A DNA stretch of 64,000 nucleotides from contig NZ_QTUC01000001.1 in the NCBI RefSeq assembly GCF_003386795.1, positions 3,534,001 through 3,598,000 of the forward strand, written 5' to 3'. This document shows, in pieces, positions 9,401-47,198 of this stretch (within the stretch, counting starts at the first letter, position 1; every line of letters starts with the position of its first letter). Both the position numbers and the translations under genes were made by a program. The notes beneath the pieces were generated by a model. The model did not search any database, was not told the origin of the DNA, and saw nothing but the letters and a program-made list of their open reading frames with translations. This DNA is from Thermasporomyces composti. Its GTDB lineage: Bacteria > Actinomycetota > Actinomycetes > Propionibacteriales > Actinopolymorphaceae.

Positions 9401-10108
9401 GTGCACGTACCTGACGGATTCCTCGACGTCCCCACCTCGGTGGCCACCGGCGTCGTCGCGGCGGCCGCGATCGGCGTCTCGCTCCGAGGGGCCCGCCGCG
9501 AGCTCGACGACCGGACCGCGCCGCTGACCGGCCTGGTCGCGGCGTTCGTCTTCGCCGTCCAGATGCTCAACTTCCCCGTCGGCGCCGGCACGAGCGGCCA
9601 CCTCCTCGGCGGCGCGCTCGCCGCCGTCCTCGTCGGGCCCTGGACGGGCGTGCTGTGTATGAGCGTGGTCCTCCTCGTCCAGGCGCTGTTCTTCGCCGAC
9701 GGCGGGATCACCGCGCTCGGCACCAACGTGGTGCTCATGGGCGTGCTCACCGTCGCCGCGGGCTGGCTCGTCTTCCGGCTGGCGCTCCGCCTGCTCCCGG
9801 CCCGGCGGTCCTCGACGGTCCCCGCGTCCTTCGTGGCCGGCCTGATCTCGGTGCCGGTCTCCGCGCTGGGGTTCGTCGCGCTCTACGCGGTCGGCGGCAC
9901 GGCCGACATCTCCCTCGCGGCTCTGGCCACCGCCATGCTGGGGTGGCACGTCCTCATCGGCCTGGGCGAGGCGGCCATCACGGCGGCCACGGTCGCGACC
10001 GTCCTCGCCGTCCGTCCCGACCTCGTCTACGGCGCGCGGAAGTTCCTCGCCGGCCAGGAGCTCACCATTCGCACCGGTCCCGTCGTGTCCAAGGAGGTCA
10101 GCTCGTGA
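9401..10108 (+). CDS. cbiM: Nickel/cobalt ECF transporter S component, CbiM/NikM type
   Basis: A 235-residue integral membrane substrate-capture protein. The N-terminus is MHVPDGFL, the metal-binding Met-His segment essential in CbiM/NikM, followed by about six hydrophobic segments and the conserved FAVQMLNFPVGAGTSGHLLGG block. The GTG start follows a GGGGAGGAG site. It overlaps the next gene by four bases (GTGA) and leads a four-gene operon cbiMNQO. Metal preference cannot be read from the protein alone; the upstream Nur-like box points to nickel. Confidence 0.92.
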   Translation: MHVPDGFLDVPTSVATGVVAAAAIGVSLRGARRELDDRTAPLTGLVAAFVFAVQMLNFPVGAGTSGHLLGGALAAVLVGPWTGVLCMSVVLLVQALFFADGGITALGTNVVLMGVLTVAAGWLVFRLALRLLPARRSSTVPASFVAGLISVPVSALGFVALYAVGGTADISLAALATAMLGWHVLIGLGEAAITAATVATVLAVRPDLVYGARKFLAGQELTIRTGPVVSKEVSS

Positions 10109-10470
10109 AGACGCCGGTTCGGACCACGACGCTCCTCGTGGCTGGGTTGCTGGTCAGCCTGGCGCTCGCGGGCCTCGTGAGCTACTACGCCTCCGCGAGC
10201 CCTGACGGCCTGAACCGAGTGGCTGAGGATCTCGGCTTCCACGTGACCGAGAAGGAGAGCGCCACCGCCGGCTCGCCCCTCGCCGACTACGGCGTCGCCG
10301 GTGTGGACAACGCCTTCCTCTCCGGCGGGCTCGCCGGTGTCATCGGCGTGCTTCTCGTCCTGGCTGTCGGAAGCGGGCTCGCCTACGCTGTGCGCCGGCG
10401 CGAACGCGCGTCCGCGCCGGCGACGGAGCGCCAGCCAGAGGAGGCCGAGGAGGCGGGACGAGGACGCTGA
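10105..10470 (+). CDS. PDGLE-domain transporter component (CbiN/NikN-like)
   Basis: A 121-residue protein with two membrane helices (about 7-27 and 72-93) flanking an extracytoplasmic loop. After the first helix comes SPDGLNRVAEDLGF, the PDGL(E) motif of the small subunits that accompany CbiM in metal ECF transporters. The C-terminus is Arg/Glu-rich and cytoplasmic. The GTG start overlaps the cbiM stop, and AAGGAGG lies 8 bases upstream inside cbiM, so translation is coupled. Confidence 0.88.
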   Translation: MKTPVRTTTLLVAGLLVSLALAGLVSYYASASPDGLNRVAEDLGFHVTEKESATAGSPLADYGVAGVDNAFLSGGLAGVIGVLLVLAVGSGLAYAVRRRERASAPATERQPEEAEEAGRGR

Positions 10471-10471
10471 G

Positions 10472-11233
10472 GTGACGCACGGGCTCACTCATCGGCTCTA
10501 TGTGGACCGGGACTCCCCGGTCCACCGGCTGCCGGCGGAGTGCAAGATCGCGGCTGTCCTCAGCTTCGTGCTCGTCGTCGTGGCGACACCGCCCACGGAG
10601 TACGCGGCGTTCGCCTGCTTCGCTCTGCTGCTGGTCGCGGTCACCGCCCTCGCCCGCGTCCCTCTCCGCGTGGTGGTGCCGAGACTCGTCGTCGAGACAC
10701 CCGTCGTCGTCTTCGCGCTGCTCCTGCCGTTCGTCGCCGAGGGACGCCGGACCGAGGTGATCGGCCTGTCGCTGTCGGTGTCCGGGCTCCTGTCGAGCTG
10801 GAACGTCGTGGCCAAAGCCACGGTGGGCGTGCTCGCGTCGATCCTGCTGGCCGCGACGACCAGCCAGCGAGACCTGCTCGTCGGGCTCCAGCGGCTCAAG
10901 GTCCCGGCCCTCGTTGTCCAGATTGTCGCGTTCATGGTGCGCTACATTGACGTGATCGCCGACCAGATGGCGCGAATGCGTCTCGCCCGGGCGGCCCGCG
11001 GCTTCGTCCCGCGGGGACCCCGGTCGTGGCCTGTCCTCGCGCGGTCGGCTGGAGCGTTGTTCATCCGCTCCTTCGAGCGAGGCGAGCGCGTCCACCTCGC
11101 GATGCTGTCCCGCGGCTACACGGGAGCACTACCGGAGCTCTCAGGCCAGCGAGGAACGCTCAGGGCCTGGGCCTCTGCCGCTGCCCTCCCTCTCGCCGCC
11201 GTCGTCACCCTCGCCGTCTCGGTGGCGCGATGA
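10472..11233 (+). CDS. cbiQ: ECF transporter T component CbiQ
   Basis: A 253-residue membrane coupling protein. The N-terminus carries YVDRDSPVHRLPAECK, as in CbiQ proteins. Two cytoplasmic ARG-type coupling motifs are visible: ARMRLARAARGF near residue 170 and the later MLSRGYTG. It transmits ATP hydrolysis by CbiO to the metal-binding component. The GTG start is separated by one base from the preceding stop, and the stop overlaps the ATG of cbiO. Confidence 0.92.
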   Translation: MTHGLTHRLYVDRDSPVHRLPAECKIAAVLSFVLVVVATPPTEYAAFACFALLLVAVTALARVPLRVVVPRLVVETPVVVFALLLPFVAEGRRTEVIGLSLSVSGLLSSWNVVAKATVGVLASILLAATTSQRDLLVGLQRLKVPALVVQIVAFMVRYIDVIADQMARMRLARAARGFVPRGPRSWPVLARSAGALFIRSFERGERVHLAMLSRGYTGALPELSGQRGTLRAWASAAALPLAAVVTLAVSVAR

Positions 11234-19101: not shown

Positions 19102-19107
19102 GGTTTG

Positions 19108-19170
<63 letters not shown>

Positions 19171-19180
<10 letters not shown>

Positions 19181-20754
19181 TCGGCCTCCGGAATGCTAGC
19201 AGTGCCCCTCCCAGCGACGAAATCGAGGACCGCCTTCGCCGCGTTGTGGCCCCCGATCCCGCTGACCCCGCCGCCTCGCCGGGCCCCGCTGCCACAGATC
19301 AGCAGGTTCGGCACGGCGGTCTCGACACCCCACGTCCCCACCTCGTCCTCGGCCTCGGCCCACGGCCAGGCGAGGTCGCCGTGGAAAATGTGGCCGCCCG
19401 GCATCCCGATCGAGCTCTCGATGTCGAGGGGACTCCGCACCTCCAGGCACGGTCGGCCGTCGGCGTCGCGGGCGAGGCAGTCCTCGATGGGCTCCTCGAG
19501 GTAGGCGTTGAGGGCGGAGAGGCAGGCCTGGGCGGCCTTGTCCCGTTGGTCGGGATCGTCGAACAACCGCGCCGGCGTCTGCAGGCCGAAGAGCGTCACG
19601 GTGTGCCAGCCCTGCTCGACGAGCTCTGGGGCGAGGATGCTCGGGTCGGTGAGGGTGTGGCAGTAGAGCTCGCTCGGCATCCGGCTCGGGAGCTGACCCG
19701 CGGCCGCCTCGTCGTAGGCCTGCCGCAGCGCCGTGTAGCCCTCGTCGATGTGCAGGGTGCCCGCGAAGGCCTGCGCGGGGTCGACTCCCGAGCGGAACCT
19801 GGGCAGCCGGGTGAGCAGCAGGTTGATCTTGATCTGGCACCCCTCGGGGACGTGCTCCGGTGTGCGGCCGAGAAGCCGATCGAGTGTGGCCGGGGCCACA
19901 CCCGCCAGGACGTACGCCGCGGAGACGGCCTCGTCCTGCTCGTTCGCCACATAGCGGACCTCAGCGGAGCGACCGTCGGTGTCGATGCGGATGACCTTCG
20001 CGCCGGTGCGCAGCGTCGCGCCCGCCGAGCGGGCGGCCCGGGCCAGTTCGTCCGTCACCGCGCCCATGCCGCCGACCGGCACGCGCCACTCACCGGTGCC
20101 GTTGCCGATCACGTGGTAGAGGAAGCAGCGGTTCTGCCGCAGCGACGGGTCGTGGGCGTGGGTGAAGGTTCCGATGAGCGCGTCGGTCAGGACCACGCCT
20201 CGCACGGTGTCGTCTCGGAACGCCTCCTCGATCGCCACGCCGACCGGTGTCGCGACGAAGCGTTCCCACGTCTCTGCGCCCACCAGGGCGCGCATCTCGT
20301 GGGCCGGCCGGAGTGGCTCCAGCATCGTCGGGGCGAGGGTGCGGGCCATCGCCCCGAGCTCGCCGTAGAAGCGTCGCCAGGCGGCGTACTCCGTGTCTCC
20401 GCCGGTGAGCGCTCGAAACGACGCCTCGGTCGCCGGTCCCGGGTCGCGTTCGACGAGCAGGCCGGTGTGCGCCCCATGCCGGATGACGGGTGTGTAGGAG
20501 GCGACCGCTCGGGATGCCAGCCTGACCTTGAGTCCGAGGTCGGCGACGATCTGGTCGGGGAGCAGGCTGACCAAGTAGGAGTACCGCGACAACCTGGCGT
20601 CCAGCCCGGGGAAGACACGCTCGCTCACCGCTGCTCCGCCGATGTGGTCGAGACGTTCCAAGACCAGCACCGACAGGCCGGCCTTGGCCAGGTAGGCGGC
20701 CGCGACCAGGCCGTTGTGCCCGCCGCCGACCACGACCGCGTCGTATCGCTCCAT
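19171..20754 (-). CDS. CrtI-like NAD(P)/FAD-dependent oxidoreductase
   Basis: A 527-residue flavoprotein. The N-terminal dinucleotide-binding motif VVVGGGHNGLVAAAYLAKAG is at residues 7-26, followed by VLERLDHIGGAAVSE; the C-terminal FAD motif LLICGSGARRGGGVSGIGG is near residue 490. This fits the phytoene-desaturase/PYROXD2-like branch, not amine oxidases. No carotenoid genes are near, so the substrate is unknown. ATG start is supported by a leaderless -10 box. The reading frame ends inside the following tRNA-Lys gene. Confidence 0.85.
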
Positions 20755-20767: not shown

Positions 20768-20864
20768 CGTGGGGCACGCCGGCGCGTCGCGTGCTCGAGA
20801 CTGGGGCAGGTTCGCCACGGACGCGGTCGAGCAGGCCCGGTCGAGACGTCGCCCGAGGCGGGAG

Positions 20865-22180
20865 ATGATCACCGTCAAGGACATCCTGGCCGTTCTTCCC
20901 GACGACGCGCGAGCTGTGCGTCAGCTCGCCCTCGACGACGTCGTGACGGGCGTGCAGGTGGACTCCCGGCGGGTCACCTCGGGCGCGGTCTTCGTCTCCT
21001 TGGCGAAGGTGCCGACGGCTCGAGTCGCCCACATCGCCCAGGCGCGCGCCGCCGGCGCGACCGCTGTGATCGGACCGCCGGGGTCGGATGCGGACATCCA
21101 CGTCACCGATCCCGCGGCCGCCGCGGCGGCGGTGGCGTGCGCGTTCTACCGCTACCCGGCACGGAAGCTGTCGGTCGTCGCGGTCACCGGCTCCAACGGC
21201 AAGAGCTCCGTGAGCTACGCGCTGGGCGGTGTCCTGCGGACGCTGGGCGCCAGGGTGGGGGTGATCGGCACGATCGGCATCTCCGTGGACGGCGTGGAGC
21301 TGGATGTCGAGCGGCGCACGCCGACCACGCCGGAGTCGGTCGATGTCCAGAGCCTCCTCCGTCGGTTCGCCGACGGCGGCGTGACGCACGTGGTGGTGGA
21401 GGCGTCCTCGATCGCGCTCGCCGAGCGGCGGTGGCCAACGCCGACGATCCCGTCGGCCGCCGGATCGAGCGGCGCTGGAACGCCCGCACGTTCGCGCTGC
21501 GGTCGGACGCCGAGCTCGTCGCCACCGACCTACGGCGAAGGGTCGACGGGACGGTGTTCGTCGTGCACGCGGACGGTCAGGCGGTGCCGGCGTCGGTGCG
21601 CGGGTTCGGCGAGTTCAGCGTCTCCAACGCGCTGGCCGTCCTCGCCACGGCGGTCGAGCTCGGCGTCCCACTCGACGACGCGGTGCGCCGTTGGCCGCGC
21701 AGCTGGGTCCGCCGGGCCGGATGCAGGTGGTGCCGGTGAACCGGCCGTACACGGTGGTGGTGGACTACGCGCACAGCCCGGACGCCTTGGAGCAGGTGCT
21801 GCGGACACTGCGCACCGGCGCGACGGGTCGCCTCGTGACGGTGTTCGGCTGTGGCGGGGACCGGGATCGCGCCAAGCGTCCGGCCATGGGACGGATCGCG
21901 GCCGAGCTGTCCGACCAGGTCGTCGTCACCAGCGACATCCTCGGACGGAGGATCCGCTGCGGATCATCGGCGACGTCCTCGCCGGCACGACGGCGCGCGG
22001 ACCGCGTTCACGCGATCCCCGACCGCGCCGAGGCGATCGCGCACGCCATGGCCACGGCCCGCCCGGGGTGACCTCATCCTCATCGCCGGCAAGGGCAGCG
22101 AGCCCTGCCAGATCGTCGGCGACACGAAGGTGCCGTACAGCGATGAGGCCACGGTGCTCTCGCTCGCGTCGGACGGGTGA
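20865..22180 (+). pseudogene. Decayed MurE-like Mur ligase
   Basis: Fragments of a UDP-MurNAc-tripeptide-synthetase homolog are spread over all three plus frames. The first intact stretch (20865 to about 21440) has DSRRVTSGAVFVSL, Walker-type AVTGSNGKSSVSYALG and [11 protein letters not shown]. It then jumps directly to [10 protein letters not shown], so the roughly 60-residue segment with the TNLGRDHLD region is deleted. Further frame changes occur near 21690, 21945, 21990 and 22068, before [48 protein letters not shown] and [15 protein letters not shown]. At least four frameshifts plus a deletion make function very unlikely. No division-cluster genes are nearby, so this was a paralog. Confidence 0.88.
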
Positions 22181-22204
22181 GCCGGCGCGCCGGGACCGGC
22201 CCGG

Positions 22205-22843
22205 TCAGCAGACGATCTTGAGCGCGCTGGCGAACCCGGTGCCGAGCGTGAACTGCGCGCTGATGTGCAGGAAGGCCGCCGCCTCGAGGAAGCGCGCGCG
22301 GCTCAACGGACCCGCGTCGATCGGGCGCATCCCGCCGGACTCCACCAGGCTGGCCACGGTGGCTTTGGCCTCCGCGTCGTCGCCGGCGAGGAAGACGTCC
22401 AAGGGCATGCCGGCGACCTGCCCAGTCAGCAGCGTGCCGGCGAAGGTGGTGTTGAACGCCTTGACGATGCGCGCACCAGGGTCCGCGGCCTTGGCGATCT
22501 CCTCCGCCGCCGAGCTGTCGGCGGGTGTGAGGAGGCCGTCGTAGCTGGACTTGATCGGGTTGGTCACGTCGATGACGGTCAGCCCGTTGAGCTGGTCGCC
22601 GTACTGCTTGACCAGCCCGAGCGTCGCGACGTAGGGGACGGCGAGGACCACGACAGAGCCCAGCAGGGGGTCGCCGATCGTTCCCGCCGAGACCCGGCCC
22701 TCGGACGCGCTGCGCAGCTCGTCCACCAGGATGGCGGACTGGCCGGCATCCCTGTCCAGGATGTGCACCTGGTGGTTTCCCACCAGCAGACGGGTCGCGA
22801 TCCCTCGAGCCATGTTGCCCGCGCCGAGAATGGTCACCTGCAC
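22205..22843 (-). CDS. NPDG/F420H2:NADP+ oxidoreductase-like protein
   Basis: A 212-residue Rossmann protein. The N-terminus VQVTILGAGNMARGIATRLL is the NADP-binding GxGxxA segment of the F420-dependent NADP reductase / pyrroline-carboxylate-reductase-like family. Later come VVVLAVPY, VIDVTNPIK, KAFNTTFAG (family KAFNT) and DVFLAGDD. It may transfer hydride between NADPH and F420, but several actinobacterial paralogs have unknown substrates. GTG at 22843 was chosen for its GGGAGG site 7 bases upstream and the match of the N-terminus to the family. Confidence 0.82.
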   Translation of the reverse strand: MQVTILGAGNMARGIATRLLVGNHQVHILDRDAGQSAILVDELRSASEGRVSAGTIGDPLLGSVVVLAVPYVATLGLVKQYGDQLNGLTVIDVTNPIKSSYDGLLTPADSSAAEEIAKAADPGARIVKAFNTTFAGTLLTGQVAGMPLDVFLAGDDAEAKATVASLVESGGMRPIDAGPLSRARFLEAAAFLHISAQFTLGTGFASALKIVC

Positions 22844-42124: not shown

Positions 42125-42940
42125 CTAAGTCTTCGCACCTACGACGACGTACATCAGCAACCTCACCTCCACGGACGATTCACCGACAACTCCGAGAATC
42201 GCACTACGGAGCTGTTGGCGCTCGCACGGAGTCATGTTAGCGATGTGACCTAGCGAAAGCTGAAGTGACGCGAACCGTTCCGGTGACATCGGAACAATTC
42301 GGTCCATCCACCAGTGTACTGAAGGTCTAAAGTAGCCACTGGACGACATCTCAGTTCGACCTTCAGCACACAGCAATTGAAGCTGATCGACAAAGTCATC
42401 GTCGCGGACCAAATCCGGGCTTAGGTCGTGAAAAATCGAGTTCAGCGCCCGCCTAAGCTGCTGGTCGGCGGCGTAGGGAAATCTCCAGAGAAGAATCAGC
42501 TTACCATTCGCGGTGGTGAGTCTCGACGCGAGCTCGTAACCCAAGGCGGGGTCGACCCAGTGGAAGGCATCACACGACCAAATTTCGTCCAGCGATCCAG
42601 CTTCTACGTCATCGTCGACCTCTTCGAACTTCACCGGTAAGATACGAAGAGAGCCTCGGGAAACATACTCGGAGAGCAGTGAAGCAAGGATTCCTCGAAA
42701 CGTAGCATCAGGTTCGAGTGCGGTCAGGTGTTGCGGCTGCCTCACCAAAGCTCTTGTTAACTGACCAGTCCCGGCACCGATTTCTAGGACTCGACTAAAT
42801 CGAGCCGAAATACCTTCACCATGAGCACGCGTTCGAATGTATTCGACTTCCGCAGAAGAAACTTGGAAGCGTCCCGTTTGATAGTCATCGGCAAGTCGAC
42901 CAAAACTAAGCGCACCGCTCCGGTTCGTATTAGCGCGCAT
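42125..42940 (-). CDS. Class I SAM-dependent methyltransferase
   Basis: A 271-residue protein. The SAM-binding motif I is VLEIGAGTGQLTRAL at residues 51-65, with motif II ALEPDATF and an acidic LDEIWSCDAFHWVD later, similar to the small-molecule methyltransferases of the UbiE/trans-aconitate type. The substrate is unknown. It starts seven bases after the stop of the phosphoribosyltransferase-like gene, so the two are co-transcribed. Composition is lower in G+C than the chromosome. It could modify a product made by the other island proteins. Confidence 0.8.
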   Translation of the reverse strand: MRANTNRSGALSFGRLADDYQTGRFQVSSAEVEYIRTRAHGEGISARFSRVLEIGAGTGQLTRALVRQPQHLTALEPDATFRGILASLLSEYVSRGSLRILPVKFEEVDDDVEAGSLDEIWSCDAFHWVDPALGYELASRLTTANGKLILLWRFPYAADQQLRRALNSIFHDLSPDLVRDDDFVDQLQLLCAEGRTEMSSSGYFRPSVHWWMDRIVPMSPERFASLQLSLGHIANMTPCERQQLRSAILGVVGESSVEVRLLMYVVVGAKT

Positions 42941-42946
42941 ACTTTT

Positions 42947-44245
42947 TCAATGTCCTTTCATTCCATGACGCGCCTGAAACAATTCTACCACACGCTGGAC
43001 GCGTCCTGAAATCGCCGATGCCCTCCTTGCCATTAGCCACTCCCGCTTCTTGCGCGCATTAACCCAACCGGGAGGACGCTCCTCATCTCCGATCATTAGC
43101 AAGTATTCGTCACGGTTGAGCTCTCGCGCGGTGTGCTTGAGCATGGCGTAAACCAGGCAAGGTAATTCGGCGATACGACCTAGCTGATGAATTAGGGACC
43201 ACAGGGCGGGTGTAGGCAAGTCAAAATCACATAAAAGACCAGCCATCAATTCGATTGGACTACCAACACAATCACCATGGAGTGTCAATGCGCTGACAAA
43301 GACGAGGTGCTTGCCGTGCAATAGCCGGAGGTGTCTACAGGCGGCGTTACTGGGCATGGCTGTATACGACATCGCCAATTTTGTTGAAGGGACTAAGGAT
43401 GCTACTTGGCGAACTAACACTTCGAAATTGACGGAAGGAGAAGCTTGCGCAATCCGTTGCAGTAACATGTTCGCCGCTTTCCAGTAATCGTCCGGAAGTA
43501 CCTGAAAGCTTATTGCCCGGTTATGACGCTTTGTAATAACTTGAATCAAATGGTCGAAGTTCAGCGTCTTCGAAAAATCACTCTCCTTTACCGGTGTAGG
43601 CAAGTACGGCTCCATGGCAAAGTCGCCGACGAGTTCAATACCAAGTCCTGACACTTTGGCGTCGTTGCGCGCTTGTGTGCGAGCCAGCCTACTGCTACCT
43701 ACGTACCTTACTACTTTAGTCGCCGTGGTGGACTTATCTGTCCACAATAGTGGAAAGGGGCGAGGCTTGCCGCTAAGGCTCGAAGCTTCCGTTACAAGAG
43801 CACTCGTTGACCCAGTGGTACGCTGCATCGAGTCAAATTGACCTCGCCTTTCCCATAGATCGCCACCTACCTCGCCTGCTGCACCGACAAGAGCAAAGTC
43901 GAAACCTTGCTCGCTGAGGAGGTGTTTTACGACATCTTTTTGGAATTCGGCGAGACAGATCGCGCCTACTAATGCATTGCGAGGACGTTGAGCCTGAATT
44001 GCGAGCCGTAGAGCTCCTGCTGTCTGCCCAGAACCGATCAAGTCATCAACGACCAAAATTAGGTCAGCAGAACCTACTCTTGCGATCTCGATAAACGTGT
44101 AATCTTGCGGAAGTGTAATACGCTTAAGCCCGGTCCACTCGCCGCGAATCGGGTGTCCTCGCACTGGTCTATAACGACGGATGTAGTCAGTGGTATGGTA
44201 GTGAGGTCGGCTTGTGGACGGTGTCCGGAAGTGGTCTCGAGTCAC
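42947..44245 (-). CDS. Phosphoribosyltransferase-domain protein with a long unrecognised C-terminus
   Basis: A 432-residue protein. LILVVDDLIGSGQTAGALRL at about 62-81 is a type I phosphoribosyltransferase PRPP loop (consensus DDxxxxG/TxT). Only about 60 residues precede it, fewer than usual, and an in-frame stop two codons before the GTG rules out extension. Residues about 230-430 (e.g. HGKHLVFVSALTLHGDCVGS, then LIHQLGRIAELPCLVYAMLKHTA) match nothing I know. It may transfer a ribosyl-phosphate or nucleotide moiety, or act as a conflict-system effector; both are inference. It heads the minus operon. Confidence 0.65.
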   Translation of the reverse strand: MTRDHFRTPSTSRPHYHTTDYIRRYRPVRGHPIRGEWTGLKRITLPQDYTFIEIARVGSADLILVVDDLIGSGQTAGALRLAIQAQRPRNALVGAICLAEFQKDVVKHLLSEQGFDFALVGAAGEVGGDLWERRGQFDSMQRTTGSTSALVTEASSLSGKPRPFPLLWTDKSTTATKVVRYVGSSRLARTQARNDAKVSGLGIELVGDFAMEPYLPTPVKESDFSKTLNFDHLIQVITKRHNRAISFQVLPDDYWKAANMLLQRIAQASPSVNFEVLVRQVASLVPSTKLAMSYTAMPSNAACRHLRLLHGKHLVFVSALTLHGDCVGSPIELMAGLLCDFDLPTPALWSLIHQLGRIAELPCLVYAMLKHTARELNRDEYLLMIGDEERPPGWVNARKKREWLMARRASAISGRVQRVVELFQARHGMKGH

Positions 44246-44427
44246 GGGTTACGTGATCTTGCTTCATTAGGAAAAAAGATATAGGCTATCCATCCGGATG
44301 CATTATCGCGATGACGGAGAAAGGGGCGACTAGGTCTGAGGGACCGAGGGAACGGTTAGGTAGCTAGACATCGGAAAGGGGAATGGGAAAGCGCGTCCAA
44401 TATCGGGCGCCAAGCCCCTAGAGCTCA

Positions 44428-45657
44428 ATGAGTTCTTTGCCACGTGACGTACGACTACTCCTTCTTGGCCAGACCGGTGCGTCGCTTGGTGCTGCAGTTG
44501 CTTGGTTCGCTATACCGATTTTGGTGTTTGGGATAACTCATTCTCCTGTGAAGGCAGGTCTAGTAGGAACAATTTTTTATGTAACGCAACTGATCACTGC
44601 GGCGCTAGCTGGGCCTGCGGTCGACCGGCTCGACCGTAAACGGATCATGGTCATCAGTCAAGTGATACAGGGCGTTGTTTATGGTGCAGCTAGCTTTGTG
44701 ATAGTGTTTAAGCCGTCCTATGTTTTGTTCGTTGTGCTTGCATGCATCGGCGGCGTTTGCACGGCTGTATATATTACCGCTGAAAATGCAGTACTGCCAA
44801 GGTTGGCGGATTCGATTCAACTGCCGAAAGCTCTTACACTGAGTAATGCTCGACATTCCTTCGCCTCCCTTTCAGGAGGGCCGACAGGCGGCGTGCTACT
44901 TAGTGCGTCAACTTGGCTTCCGTTATTCGCGAACTTTATTGGAAGCATAATTGGCGCCGTTACGGCAGGGCTCATCCGAAAGTCGGGCGGTACAAAAAGT
45001 GTGCGCATCAAGCCCTGGACAGTAACAGAGACTTTCGACGGATTCACAAACATCATTAGAACCCCGCCGATACGCTCCTATGCTATTGTGTCAAGTTTAA
45101 ACAGTCTCGGCGGAGGTGCTATAGTTATCACGCTTCCTATTTATTGGGCCGATAAGGGATTGGATGCCGAAGTCATTGGTATTTTCACATTTACATTCGC
45201 TTCCGCTGGACTCGTTGGCGCAGTACTTGCAGCGCCCATCGTTGCCAAATTTCGGCCGTTTTTCGCGCTAACATTTGGTCTTGCTGTTTGGTCAACGGCG
45301 TCGGTGGTCGCTTGCCTTGATGTGTCAGACTACGTTGTCGTGACTGTTTTCTGCGCGGCTAGTCTTGTGACACCCGTGATGACGACGCCGATGACTGCGT
45401 GGATAGCGCGAAGTGTTCCCGATCACTTGCTGGGGAGAACGCAGTCAGCTCTATGGGTGTTGATCCGTTTGCTGGGAGCGGCGGCGCCCGGCGCAGGTGG
45501 TTGGCTGCTGGCTCAGAGCCGGGGAGCATCGGCGGCTTTCATTCCGTTCGCAATTGTCCAGATTGTAGTGCTTTTGTGCTGCCTGACAAGTAGGCATTTA
45601 AGGTCGATTCCGTCATCAGCACCTCAAGTGGCCGGAAGGTTTCAACCCAGTCCATAG
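44428..45657 (+). CDS. MFS transporter, exporter-like
   Basis: A 409-residue transporter with about twelve hydrophobic segments. VDRLDRKRIMVISQ between helices 2 and 3 is the MFS DRxxRR-type motif, and the overall pattern is close to enterobactin-exporter/multidrug MFS proteins (MFS_3). It probably exports a small molecule. Strong Shine-Dalgarno is not evident before the ATG. The gene lies 11 bases ahead of the nucleotidyltransferase-like gene, forming an operon divergent from the minus pair across a 182-base promoter region. Confidence 0.85.
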   Translation: MSSLPRDVRLLLLGQTGASLGAAVAWFAIPILVFGITHSPVKAGLVGTIFYVTQLITAALAGPAVDRLDRKRIMVISQVIQGVVYGAASFVIVFKPSYVLFVVLACIGGVCTAVYITAENAVLPRLADSIQLPKALTLSNARHSFASLSGGPTGGVLLSASTWLPLFANFIGSIIGAVTAGLIRKSGGTKSVRIKPWTVTETFDGFTNIIRTPPIRSYAIVSSLNSLGGGAIVITLPIYWADKGLDAEVIGIFTFTFASAGLVGAVLAAPIVAKFRPFFALTFGLAVWSTASVVACLDVSDYVVVTVFCAASLVTPVMTTPMTAWIARSVPDHLLGRTQSALWVLIRLLGAAAPGAGGWLLAQSRGASAAFIPFAIVQIVVLLCCLTSRHLRSIPSSAPQVAGRFQPSP

Positions 45658-45668
45658 CGGAGGAAAGC

Positions 45669-47198
45669 ATGTACGCTGAATCGCTTCAACGTGCCTCAGT
45701 GGTCAATATTCTTTCTGCCATCGCGATTGGCAAATGTCCAAATGAATCTGATCTCAGAGCTGTACCTTGGAGTGACCTGGCTGATTGTCTTGAGTATCAC
45801 GGAGTGCTTGGTCGAGTTGCAAATATTTTGGAGACGTGGCCTAAGTGGCCAGAGCGGAGATTGTTCGAAAGTGAAGTTCGACGTCGCATAATGAATCATC
45901 GCGCTCGGACGGTGGCGCAGGTTGAACGAGTGCGATCGCTGTTTCGGGGTCATCCTATTTCGCCTGTCGTTATTAAAGGCCCTACGACGGCGGCGCTTTT
46001 CGACACGGCGTACAGAATGAGGTGGAGCACTGATATCGATCTTTTTGTGGTTGATGCGACGTTGAAACAAATGGTTCATAATGCAGAAGTTCAGATGGTG
46101 GAGTCGAAATCTGAGCACGAGTTCGGTCTGCTTCGGGCAGGAGACACTATTTTCGATTTGCATCGTTATTATCCAGCTTTTTCGTACAGAAAGGACGTCG
46201 AAGGTCCTGTCAGTCACGGCGACGTGTTTTCGTGTCTGTGTAAAGATACTGCGATGTATCGGCGCACGATTGATTCGGAGGTGGTAATGGATTCTGCAGT
46301 GTGCGTCACCTCAGGCTGGGCAGAAGGTGTGCGATTTGTGCATCCTTCGATCGCCGCTGTTATTGCAGCGTGTCATTTGTTCAATAGTAGCCAATATGCG
46401 GCATCGTTCCCTCGAATTAGACTATCTGAGATCTTGGATTATCTTGAGTTGAGAAGACACTCAGATTTCGATAATCAGCTTTTCGATTCAATTGTAGAAA
46501 AAACACAGGCTCACGATGCAATTCAATTCCTGGAGCGATTTGTTGAGGAAATTTTGACATCTTGCGGATCACGCGAGTCGTGTGGTTTTCTTCAGGATCT
46601 GTGGCCGGGTCTCGCAATGGACGGATTTGTTTTTCGAATTGGATCGAAATCCTATTGGCAAAACTTGCTTTGCCGTCATGTTGAGATGGATTCCATTCTT
46701 GCGGCAACGGGGAGTACCGAACTTCAGTCATGTGAAGGTAAGCCGCAGTGGGCGCAGGTTAGGCCGTGTCGGCTTGGATGGCGTGAAGGGCAGATTGCGT
46801 CTCATGTGATCGGTGATGGAGCCGATCTAGATGTCTCGGTGTCGGCTGTACGCCACGATAACGGCTTGCGGATATACATGGCTGCGTGCCCGGCTAGTTT
46901 CGATGGAGCGGCGTTTCTCGTACTGCTGGGGAATTTGTATTTTGAGGTTCTATATGAGAATGGGGAGTGTTATATTAATGCTCAACGACAGTGGAAAGCC
47001 TGGCTGCAGGAGGATTATGAGCTTCGTGTTACAGATACTCGGCGTGGCGGACTGGAGTTCACACTAAATATTCCATGGCCGATAGTTTTAAGTGTCACCT
47101 CAGGTAGAATGATTCCCGGGCTTTTAGGTGCTAGAACTTGGCCGACGACCAGTACGGCGCGAAGTGGTCATTTGTTTGGCATACGTATCAAACTTTAG
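45669..47198 (+). CDS. NTP_transf_5-family nucleotidyltransferase-like protein
   Basis: A 509-residue protein. PVVIKGPTTAALFDTAYRM (K103) and STDIDLFVV (D122 and D124) reproduce the lysine-glycine and acidic DxD elements of the uncharacterised NTP_transf_5 family, seen near peptide and natural-product biosynthesis genes in actinobacteria. The C-terminal ~150 residues look like beta-sandwich (ending TWPTTSTARSGHLFGIRIKL) and are unrecognised. GGAGGAAAGC precedes the ATG, the best ribosome site in the island. No leader peptide gene was found nearby. Confidence 0.72.
   Translation: MYAESLQRASVVNILSAIAIGKCPNESDLRAVPWSDLADCLEYHGVLGRVANILETWPKWPERRLFESEVRRRIMNHRARTVAQVERVRSLFRGHPISPVVIKGPTTAALFDTAYRMRWSTDIDLFVVDATLKQMVHNAEVQMVESKSEHEFGLLRAGDTIFDLHRYYPAFSYRKDVEGPVSHGDVFSCLCKDTAMYRRTIDSEVVMDSAVCVTSGWAEGVRFVHPSIAAVIAACHLFNSSQYAASFPRIRLSEILDYLELRRHSDFDNQLFDSIVEKTQAHDAIQFLERFVEEILTSCGSRESCGFLQDLWPGLAMDGFVFRIGSKSYWQNLLCRHVEMDSILAATGSTELQSCEGKPQWAQVRPCRLGWREGQIASHVIGDGADLDVSVSAVRHDNGLRIYMAACPASFDGAAFLVLLGNLYFEVLYENGECYINAQRQWKAWLQEDYELRVTDTRRGGLEFTLNIPWPIVLSVTSGRMIPGLLGARTWPTTSTARSGHLFGIRIKL

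Follow-up and report, generated by a model that had tools for sequence, protein, structure and literature searches.

What gene did this stretch of DNA once carry at a place where the motifs of a single enzyme still follow one another in order, spread over all three forward reading frames, and how did it come to be broken? The window, that is, the whole stretch of 64,000 nucleotides that was analysed, comes from the genome of Thermasporomyces composti (G000; 4.37 Mb, single contig), and its segment 20865-22180 on the plus strand corresponds to one MurE-type ligase gene with an ATG at 20865 and a TGA that ends at 22180. The enzyme MurE is essential, is usually encoded by a single gene copy and serves as a target for antibiotics. 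The pieces of this gene and the two genes that flank it are listed below, and the reference for the identities is the intact homolog of Actinopolymorpha alba (A. alba), a protein of 484 aa.

19171-20754, minus strand: FAD-dependent oxidoreductase gene, open (NAD_binding_8, Amino_oxidase), left flank; from ORF and Pfam
20865-21431, plus strand: N-terminal domain and first part of the middle domain, frame 1, beginning with ATG; Walker A motif GSNGKSS kept; 68% identity to A. alba residues 1-189
21417-21435, plus strand: junction of a 127-nt deletion, within a short repeat; TNLxxDHLD and the catalytic-lysine region lost; from DNA alignment
21422-21687, plus strand: remaining middle domain, frame 2; 73% identity to A. 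alba residues 229-318; from Pfam
21691-21936, plus strand: C-terminal domain with DYAHSPDAL and a further 12-residue stretch, frame 3, terminating in a damaged DNPR motif; from translation, Pfam, NCBIfam and tblastn
21942-21998, plus strand: short piece with a 15-residue stretch, frame 1 again; from translation and DNA alignment
22000-22068, plus strand: piece of 23 residues, frame 3; from translation, tblastn and DNA alignment
22073-22180, plus strand: C-terminal end with AGKGSEPCQ and the stop, frame 2; 85% identity to A. alba over 39 aa
22205-22879, minus strand: F420_oxidored (NpdG-like) gene, open, right flank; from ORF, Pfam and NCBIfam

A tRNA-Lys gene (CTT) at 19107-19180 on the minus strand overlaps the final bases of the FAD-dependent oxidoreductase gene, which ends at 19171.

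Remains of a MurE-type gene and its lesions

The sequence-only reading had claimed that Mur-ligase motifs occur in order in three different frames, and this was borne out by forward translation, by Pfam and by tblastn with the A. alba protein. Mur_ligase_M was matched on 20865-21434 with 50.9 bits and again on 21434-21718 with 26.2 bits (cut-off 24), and Mur_ligase_C was matched on 21691-21960 with 81.8 bits (cut-off 28.4). For the N-terminal domain, Mur_ligase (PF01225), the score was 13.8 bits at a cut-off of 21, and the 35-aa C-terminal piece gave no Pfam match when searched alone. The three larger pieces had MurE models as their top NCBIfam matches. When the A. alba protein was aligned with the locus, four pieces were collinear with a combined E of 3e-162, which excludes a chance match, and the pieces were 68-77% identical to the intact protein.

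Comparison with the A. alba DNA confirmed that the gene has suffered a deletion and at least four frameshifts, as had been noticed from the letters. The deletion removed 127 nt at about 21420, and four small indels result in net frame shifts of -1 at about 21687, -1 at about 21936, -2 at about 21999 and +1 at about 22058; there are also two 3-nt differences besides the frame-breaking indels. The deleted stretch corresponds to A. alba residues from about 190 to 228, including FTNLSHDHLD and the catalytic lysine, and thus the region expected to read TNLGRDHLD is indeed gone, and the DNPR motif is damaged by one small indel. With homology to an intact gene, several frame-breaking lesions and the loss of catalytic residues, the locus is a pseudogene. 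Near-identical direct repeats of 15 and 16 nt, with starts 126 nt apart, lie on either side of the deleted stretch in A. alba, and one of the two persists at the deletion junction of the pseudogene. Because such repeats flank the stretch, the deletion likely arose by slippage between them.

Relation to the resident murE and age of the inactivation

The intact Mur ligases of G000 lie in a dcw-like run at 200-209 kb, where the canonical murE is open at C1:207539-208942, and its product is 41% identical to the A. alba homolog of the broken gene. In a first tree the homologs of the broken gene formed one clade (99/98), and the canonical MurE proteins of those genomes fell outside it; a pseudogene piece was out of frame in this tree and the long branch of the pseudogene row is an artefact. 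In a wider tree, in which the pieces were in the right frames and a Verrucomicrobia row served as outgroup, this clade was likewise separate from canonical MurE with an SH-aLRT of 96. By these relationships the pseudogene is placed as a decayed member of a separate orphan MurE subfamily, which we name MurE2. That a second Mur ligase was lost is therefore supported by the intact canonical murE elsewhere in the genome and by the intact homolog in A. alba.

The pseudogene still has the signatures of a coding sequence. GC3 was 0.91-0.96 in the five pieces measured, in agreement with the retained high G+C that had been reported for the locus, and the differences from A. alba MurE2 numbered 73, 49 and 153 at codon positions 1, 2 and 3, respectively. 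Between these two copies dN was 0.157 and dS was 0.61, which gives a dN/dS of about 0.26, and for five other genes compared between these two genomes dN/dS was 0.13-0.38. The codon-position differences and a dN/dS that falls within the context of these control genes indicate that most of the divergence arose under selection. Since the GC3 and dN/dS signatures are kept, the inactivation was probably recent, and these signs of selection together with the intact A. alba homolog favor the relatively recent loss proposed from the sequence alone. By hand arithmetic, branch-wise dN/dS of MurE2 was about 0.32 here, 0.16 in A. alba and 0.34 in A. rutila, and the FAD control gene gave 0.21, 0.26 and 0.32, so that the MurE2 branches are not clearly beyond it. 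Because this control gene alone spans 0.21-0.32, the time of death is loose and "recent" is meant without a date.

The bootstrap range of the MurE2 dS between G000 and A. alba was 0.50-0.74, and between G000 and A. rutila the dS was 0.66 (0.54-0.80). The five other genes had dS values of 0.59-0.86 and 0.59-0.80 for these two pairs, respectively, and the MurE2 dS of 0.51 between A. alba and A. rutila was near the bottom of the range for six other genes (0.50-0.74). As these values are within the range of other genes, the MurE2 copies parted about when the species did, with the limit that a dS near 0.6 is partly saturated and hence does not firmly separate vertical descent from an old transfer.

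Occurrence and genomic sites of MurE2

Among the eight genomes of Actinopolymorphaceae (G000-G007) searched at E <= 0.001, MurE2 sequence is present in four, one copy being intact and three being broken or remnants, and it lies at three different sites. The remaining four genomes (G001, G002, G004 and G007) had no MurE2 at this threshold and only Mur ligases of the canonical type. The copy of A. alba (G005) is the intact one. The copy of A. rutila (G006; L042:7215-8666) is full length and contains two cancelling frameshifts, between which about 90 aa that include the ATP-binding motif are read in the wrong frame; it is either another dying copy or the outcome of sequencing errors. In G003 a C-terminal remnant of 63-69 aa is left.

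A search for an intact ortholog at the same locus had been suggested as a check, and no such ortholog was found there. The FAD and F420 genes that flank the pseudogene lie directly next to each other in five of the six genomes from genus g3 (matches 26-103 nt apart), the A. alba MurE2 sits elsewhere, between PBP and YqeY, and the 543-nt gap between the FAD and F420 genes of A. alba holds a small gene read by eye as thioredoxin-like (L214). The idea was rejected on the flank adjacency in g3 and on this different small gene in the A. alba gap. The intergenic site may tolerate single-gene inserts. In G001, which belongs to another genus, the two flanking genes are far apart; the adjacency in g3 could for this reason be derived, and the polarity of the pseudogene site is uncertain. 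Each of the six other genomes compared at the PBP-YqeY pair, a set without G001, lacks a MurE2 between these two genes. In G003 about 0.25 kb separate the remnant from a DEAD/DSHCT helicase gene, the A. rutila MurE2 is about 5 kb from that same helicase and beside an ABC transporter, and in G002 this ABC transporter is 1 kb from the helicase without a MurE2.

When flanks of less than 0.7 kb a side are compared, the homology at the DNA level among G000, A. alba and A. rutila stops inside MurE2. No repeat pair clearly bordering the pseudogene was found, and no flanking element, recombinase or terminal repeats, as expected of cargo of a mobile element, were seen to move with the gene. The simplest reading would be that MurE2 is an old gene of the family that changed its place and is repeatedly being lost, with old transfers as the alternative; relocation is preferred here over transfer inside the family.

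Beyond the family MurE2 is patchy. A profile made from 11 MurE2 proteins (A2) and searched over 394 genomes of the class matched 16 of them at 830-895 bits, the next best score being 452 bits, which leaves a clean gap from canonical MurE; the broken copy of G000 was unmatched. These 16 genomes belong to families f20 (7) and f22 (9), and only one of them, G394, has a TGA inside the MurE2 frame (L247 / L273). The MurE2 of G394 adjoins a gene that resembles one for a phage tail sheath. With the A. alba protein as query, 13 of 297 f20 genomes were matched at E <= 1e-95, the 293 genomes of the order gave two matches (A. alba and A. rutila; the broken copy of G000 was below threshold), and at a stricter E of 1e-105 one of the 394 class genomes was matched. 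All six f20 genomes tested hold MurE2 in addition to canonical MurE.

The best 5 of 94 plasmid records with any match were from Streptomyces, at 45.6-47.9% identity over 80% of the query, and the three of these that were translated all show the MurE2 motifs; two are plasmids of 127 and 177 kb and the third is a 1.6-Mb record labelled plasmid. In the wider tree the f20 and f22 rows are intermixed with moderate support, and a plasmid carries a MurE2 almost the same as that of G401, which lies on a 9.7-Mb contig. This mixing and this near-identical pair show that transfer of MurE2 happens. Two Streptomyces plasmids have a recombinase gene about 1.2 kb away from MurE2 (L232:12377-13201; L233:10375-11223), and in A. 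alba a phage-type integrase gene (Phage_int_SAM_3, L041:11583-12707) lies about 2 kb beyond MurE2. Phage records gave no close match, the identities being 33-39% in the 10 listed out of 28 records, and PADLOC gave no hits on three MurE2 proteins.

Among 28 neighbourhoods, no gene family was found repeatedly next to MurE2 at unrelated loci, and the Pfam matches of immediate neighbours (23 of 36 listed) have no common theme. A conserved partner gene was therefore rejected, as the recurrences are mainly within genus g47 and between G094 and NBC_01237, whose MurE2 rows are close in sequence and which have neighbours in common. Other recurrences extend to two to four genomes, for example an F420-reductase-like gene in G000 and G225 and the helicase gene in G003 and G006. 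The gene in G225 (L265) resembles the F420 reductase that flanks the pseudogene, possibly by chance since such genes are common. In two genomes of genus g91 a kinase-like gene stands beside MurE2, in G353 as read by eye and without a Pfam match. In G609 the MurE2 lies between two genes on the same strand that resemble antibiotic kinases (APH and APH_6_hur; L157:6796-7770 and 9553-10491), with Pfam matches on both sides. A resistance context is possible for MurE2 in G609, the one genome with Pfam support for it.

Weighing of explanations and the predicted role of MurE2

The explanation that we prefer, with a probability of about 0.85, is that the locus is a dead stand-alone accessory MurE2, formerly under selection beside the murE of the dcw cluster and broken by a slippage deletion and by indels, and that the intact members are DAP-type ligases. 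The lineage would have carried this second ligase next to its dcw-cluster murE and kept it under purifying selection until fairly recently, when slippage would have taken out the catalytic-lysine region and small indels would have accumulated; from the dead locus no product of its own would be expected.

A recent transfer, in which a MurE2 copy arrived broken or broke at once, would agree with the plasmid-borne copies in Streptomyces, with the mixing of families in the tree and with the position of the insert between genes that are adjacent in most g3 genomes, but the dS values to A. alba and A. rutila lie inside the range of five other genes, and we consider such a transfer unlikely. That an intact second murE only appears broken through sequencing or assembly error is very unlikely. 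Some long-read assemblies typically carry small indels, the locus is known here from an assembled contig, and the A. rutila homolog likewise has a paired frameshift; however, a deletion of 127 nt between direct repeats is no base-calling slip, and the FAD, F420 reductase, PBP, YqeY and dcw Mur ligase genes of G000 align without inner stops, which is why we take the lesions to be real. Frame 1 is open from 20769 to 22544 (591 aa), and one could suppose that a truncated N-terminal domain or a fused product of this frame is still of use. The open frame is no evidence of a product, as most of the middle and C-terminal parts are outside frame 1, the catalytic-lysine region is gone, DNPR is damaged, and the frame extends into the F420 reductase gene on its antisense strand; useful remains are highly improbable. 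A decayed duplicate of the resident murE would be of the same common protein family, but the N-terminal piece shares 68% identity with A. alba MurE2 against 38% with the resident MurE, and the tree separates the two clades. With these identities and this separation from canonical MurE, duplication of the resident gene was rejected, and it has next to no probability left.

Going on with a dead accessory MurE2 as the preferred explanation, what the enzyme did has to be read from its intact relatives. Canonical MurE, the UDP-MurNAc-L-Ala-D-Glu:DAP ligase (E. coli 1E8C, M. tuberculosis 2WTZ), is matched by intact MurE2 over most of its length, and like it MurE2 keeps GTNGK, the catalytic lysine, DNPR and the final GKGxE and passes TIGR01085. 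Over 18 rows (14 MurE2, 4 canonical) the columns G109, T110, G112 and K113 of Walker A, the catalytic lysine K221, and D401, N402, P403 and R404 of DNPR are invariant, and GTNGK is kept in all 14 MurE2 rows. DNPR is a DAP-binding motif, and the catalytic lysine is carbamylated in S. aureus MurE, as has been described (PMC3829189). For TIGR01085 (murE) the A. alba protein scored 427.9 against a cut-off of 257.3 and all five further proteins (3 MurE2, 2 canonical) passed at full length; for the DAP-ligase model NF001126 it scored 435.4 against 373 and the same 5 of 5 passed. The other DAP-ligase model, NF001124 (cut-off 476), was passed by both canonical proteins and by one of four MurE2 (477.9; the others 421.2, 433.2 and 444.1), those under the cut-off being the A. 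alba protein and two of the three further MurE2 tested.

Unlike canonical MurE, MurE2 is a second, solitary gene outside dcw with 38-42% identity to the actinobacterial canonical MurE compared; its N-terminal Pfam domain is weak, and the copy here is broken. GKGHE is replaced by GKG(S/A/C)E and SSHAL by (S/T)S(M/I)(A/G)L in 14 of 14 MurE2 rows. PF01225 was over its gathering score in 4 of 4 canonical proteins and in 2 of 5 MurE2, the other three having 15.2-18.6 against 21, and in A. alba MurE2 this domain is absent from the Pfam matches at E <= 0.001. Judged by these scores, the N-terminal UDP-sugar domain has drifted in most MurE2 members tested. We infer that MurE2 would be a dispensable amide ligase of the DAP type that serves as an accessory enzyme and binds its acceptor in a changed way, and intact members would most likely add a DAP-like diamino acid, with ATP, to an acceptor like the MurNAc-dipeptide as a dispensable second enzyme. 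A putative role in cell-wall variation or in another amide-ligase pathway, as proposed earlier, is plausible.

More tentatively, and at well under even odds, MurE2 could be an undescribed, self-contained family of accessory ligases that passes between filamentous actinobacteria as a lone gene, with the DAP site kept and the acceptor domain changed. Its members would then build a different stem peptide, for instance in spores or from a different isomer of DAP, stand in for MurE when an inhibitor from the host or from neighbours is present, or use an acceptor other than UDP-MurNAc-dipeptide. If so, the repeated decay of MurE2 within Actinopolymorphaceae would indicate that the condition for which it is kept has disappeared there. 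The dead copy here suggests that cells can do without MurE2 and that one family loses it repeatedly. As a pseudogene the locus is ordinary, and it is a modest find; the interesting part is the subfamily, since a solitary, plasmid-borne second MurE lineage with a drifted acceptor domain raises the question what use a spare MurE is.

Several described proteins invite comparison. PAP11, the MurE-like protein of plastids, is a subunit of the plastid RNA polymerase; it is a relative of MurE known from solved complexes and not a solitary bacterial gene like MurE2. The "second murE" of Streptomycetaceae that carries DUF1727 is of the MurT type. It has the Mur-ligase fold, is annotated murE and is shorter, about 400 aa, in the accessible part of its description (PMC7601586), whereas MurE2 has MurE architecture and no DUF1727 among its Pfam matches. 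The same source mentions, without description in that part, an additional full-length MurE homolog of 490 aa in Kitasatospora azatica that is a tree outlier (PMC7601586). Being a second full-length MurE of about MurE2 length, it possibly belongs to MurE2. In the literature on second or orphan murE genes that was covered, largely outside subscription journals and partly in excerpt, no description of MurE2 was found and this outlier was the nearest case. The accessible part of a survey of glycopeptide resistance (PMC8698665) mentions murF-like genes and gave no lead to MurE2. The murC1 and murC2 genes of Frankia are an example of a second Mur ligase in actinobacteria of which one copy was lost in some lineages (PMC7231273); as far as that source could be consulted, they differ from MurE2 in being MurC, perhaps in one operon with murG in cluster-2 strains, and not a scattered orphan gene.

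Elsewhere in the window, at 42125-47198, there is a low-GC island of 52-55% against about 70%, which contains genes for a methyltransferase, a 432-aa protein without a Pfam match, an MFS transporter and an NTP_transf_5 protein, and which by its composition looks horizontally acquired.
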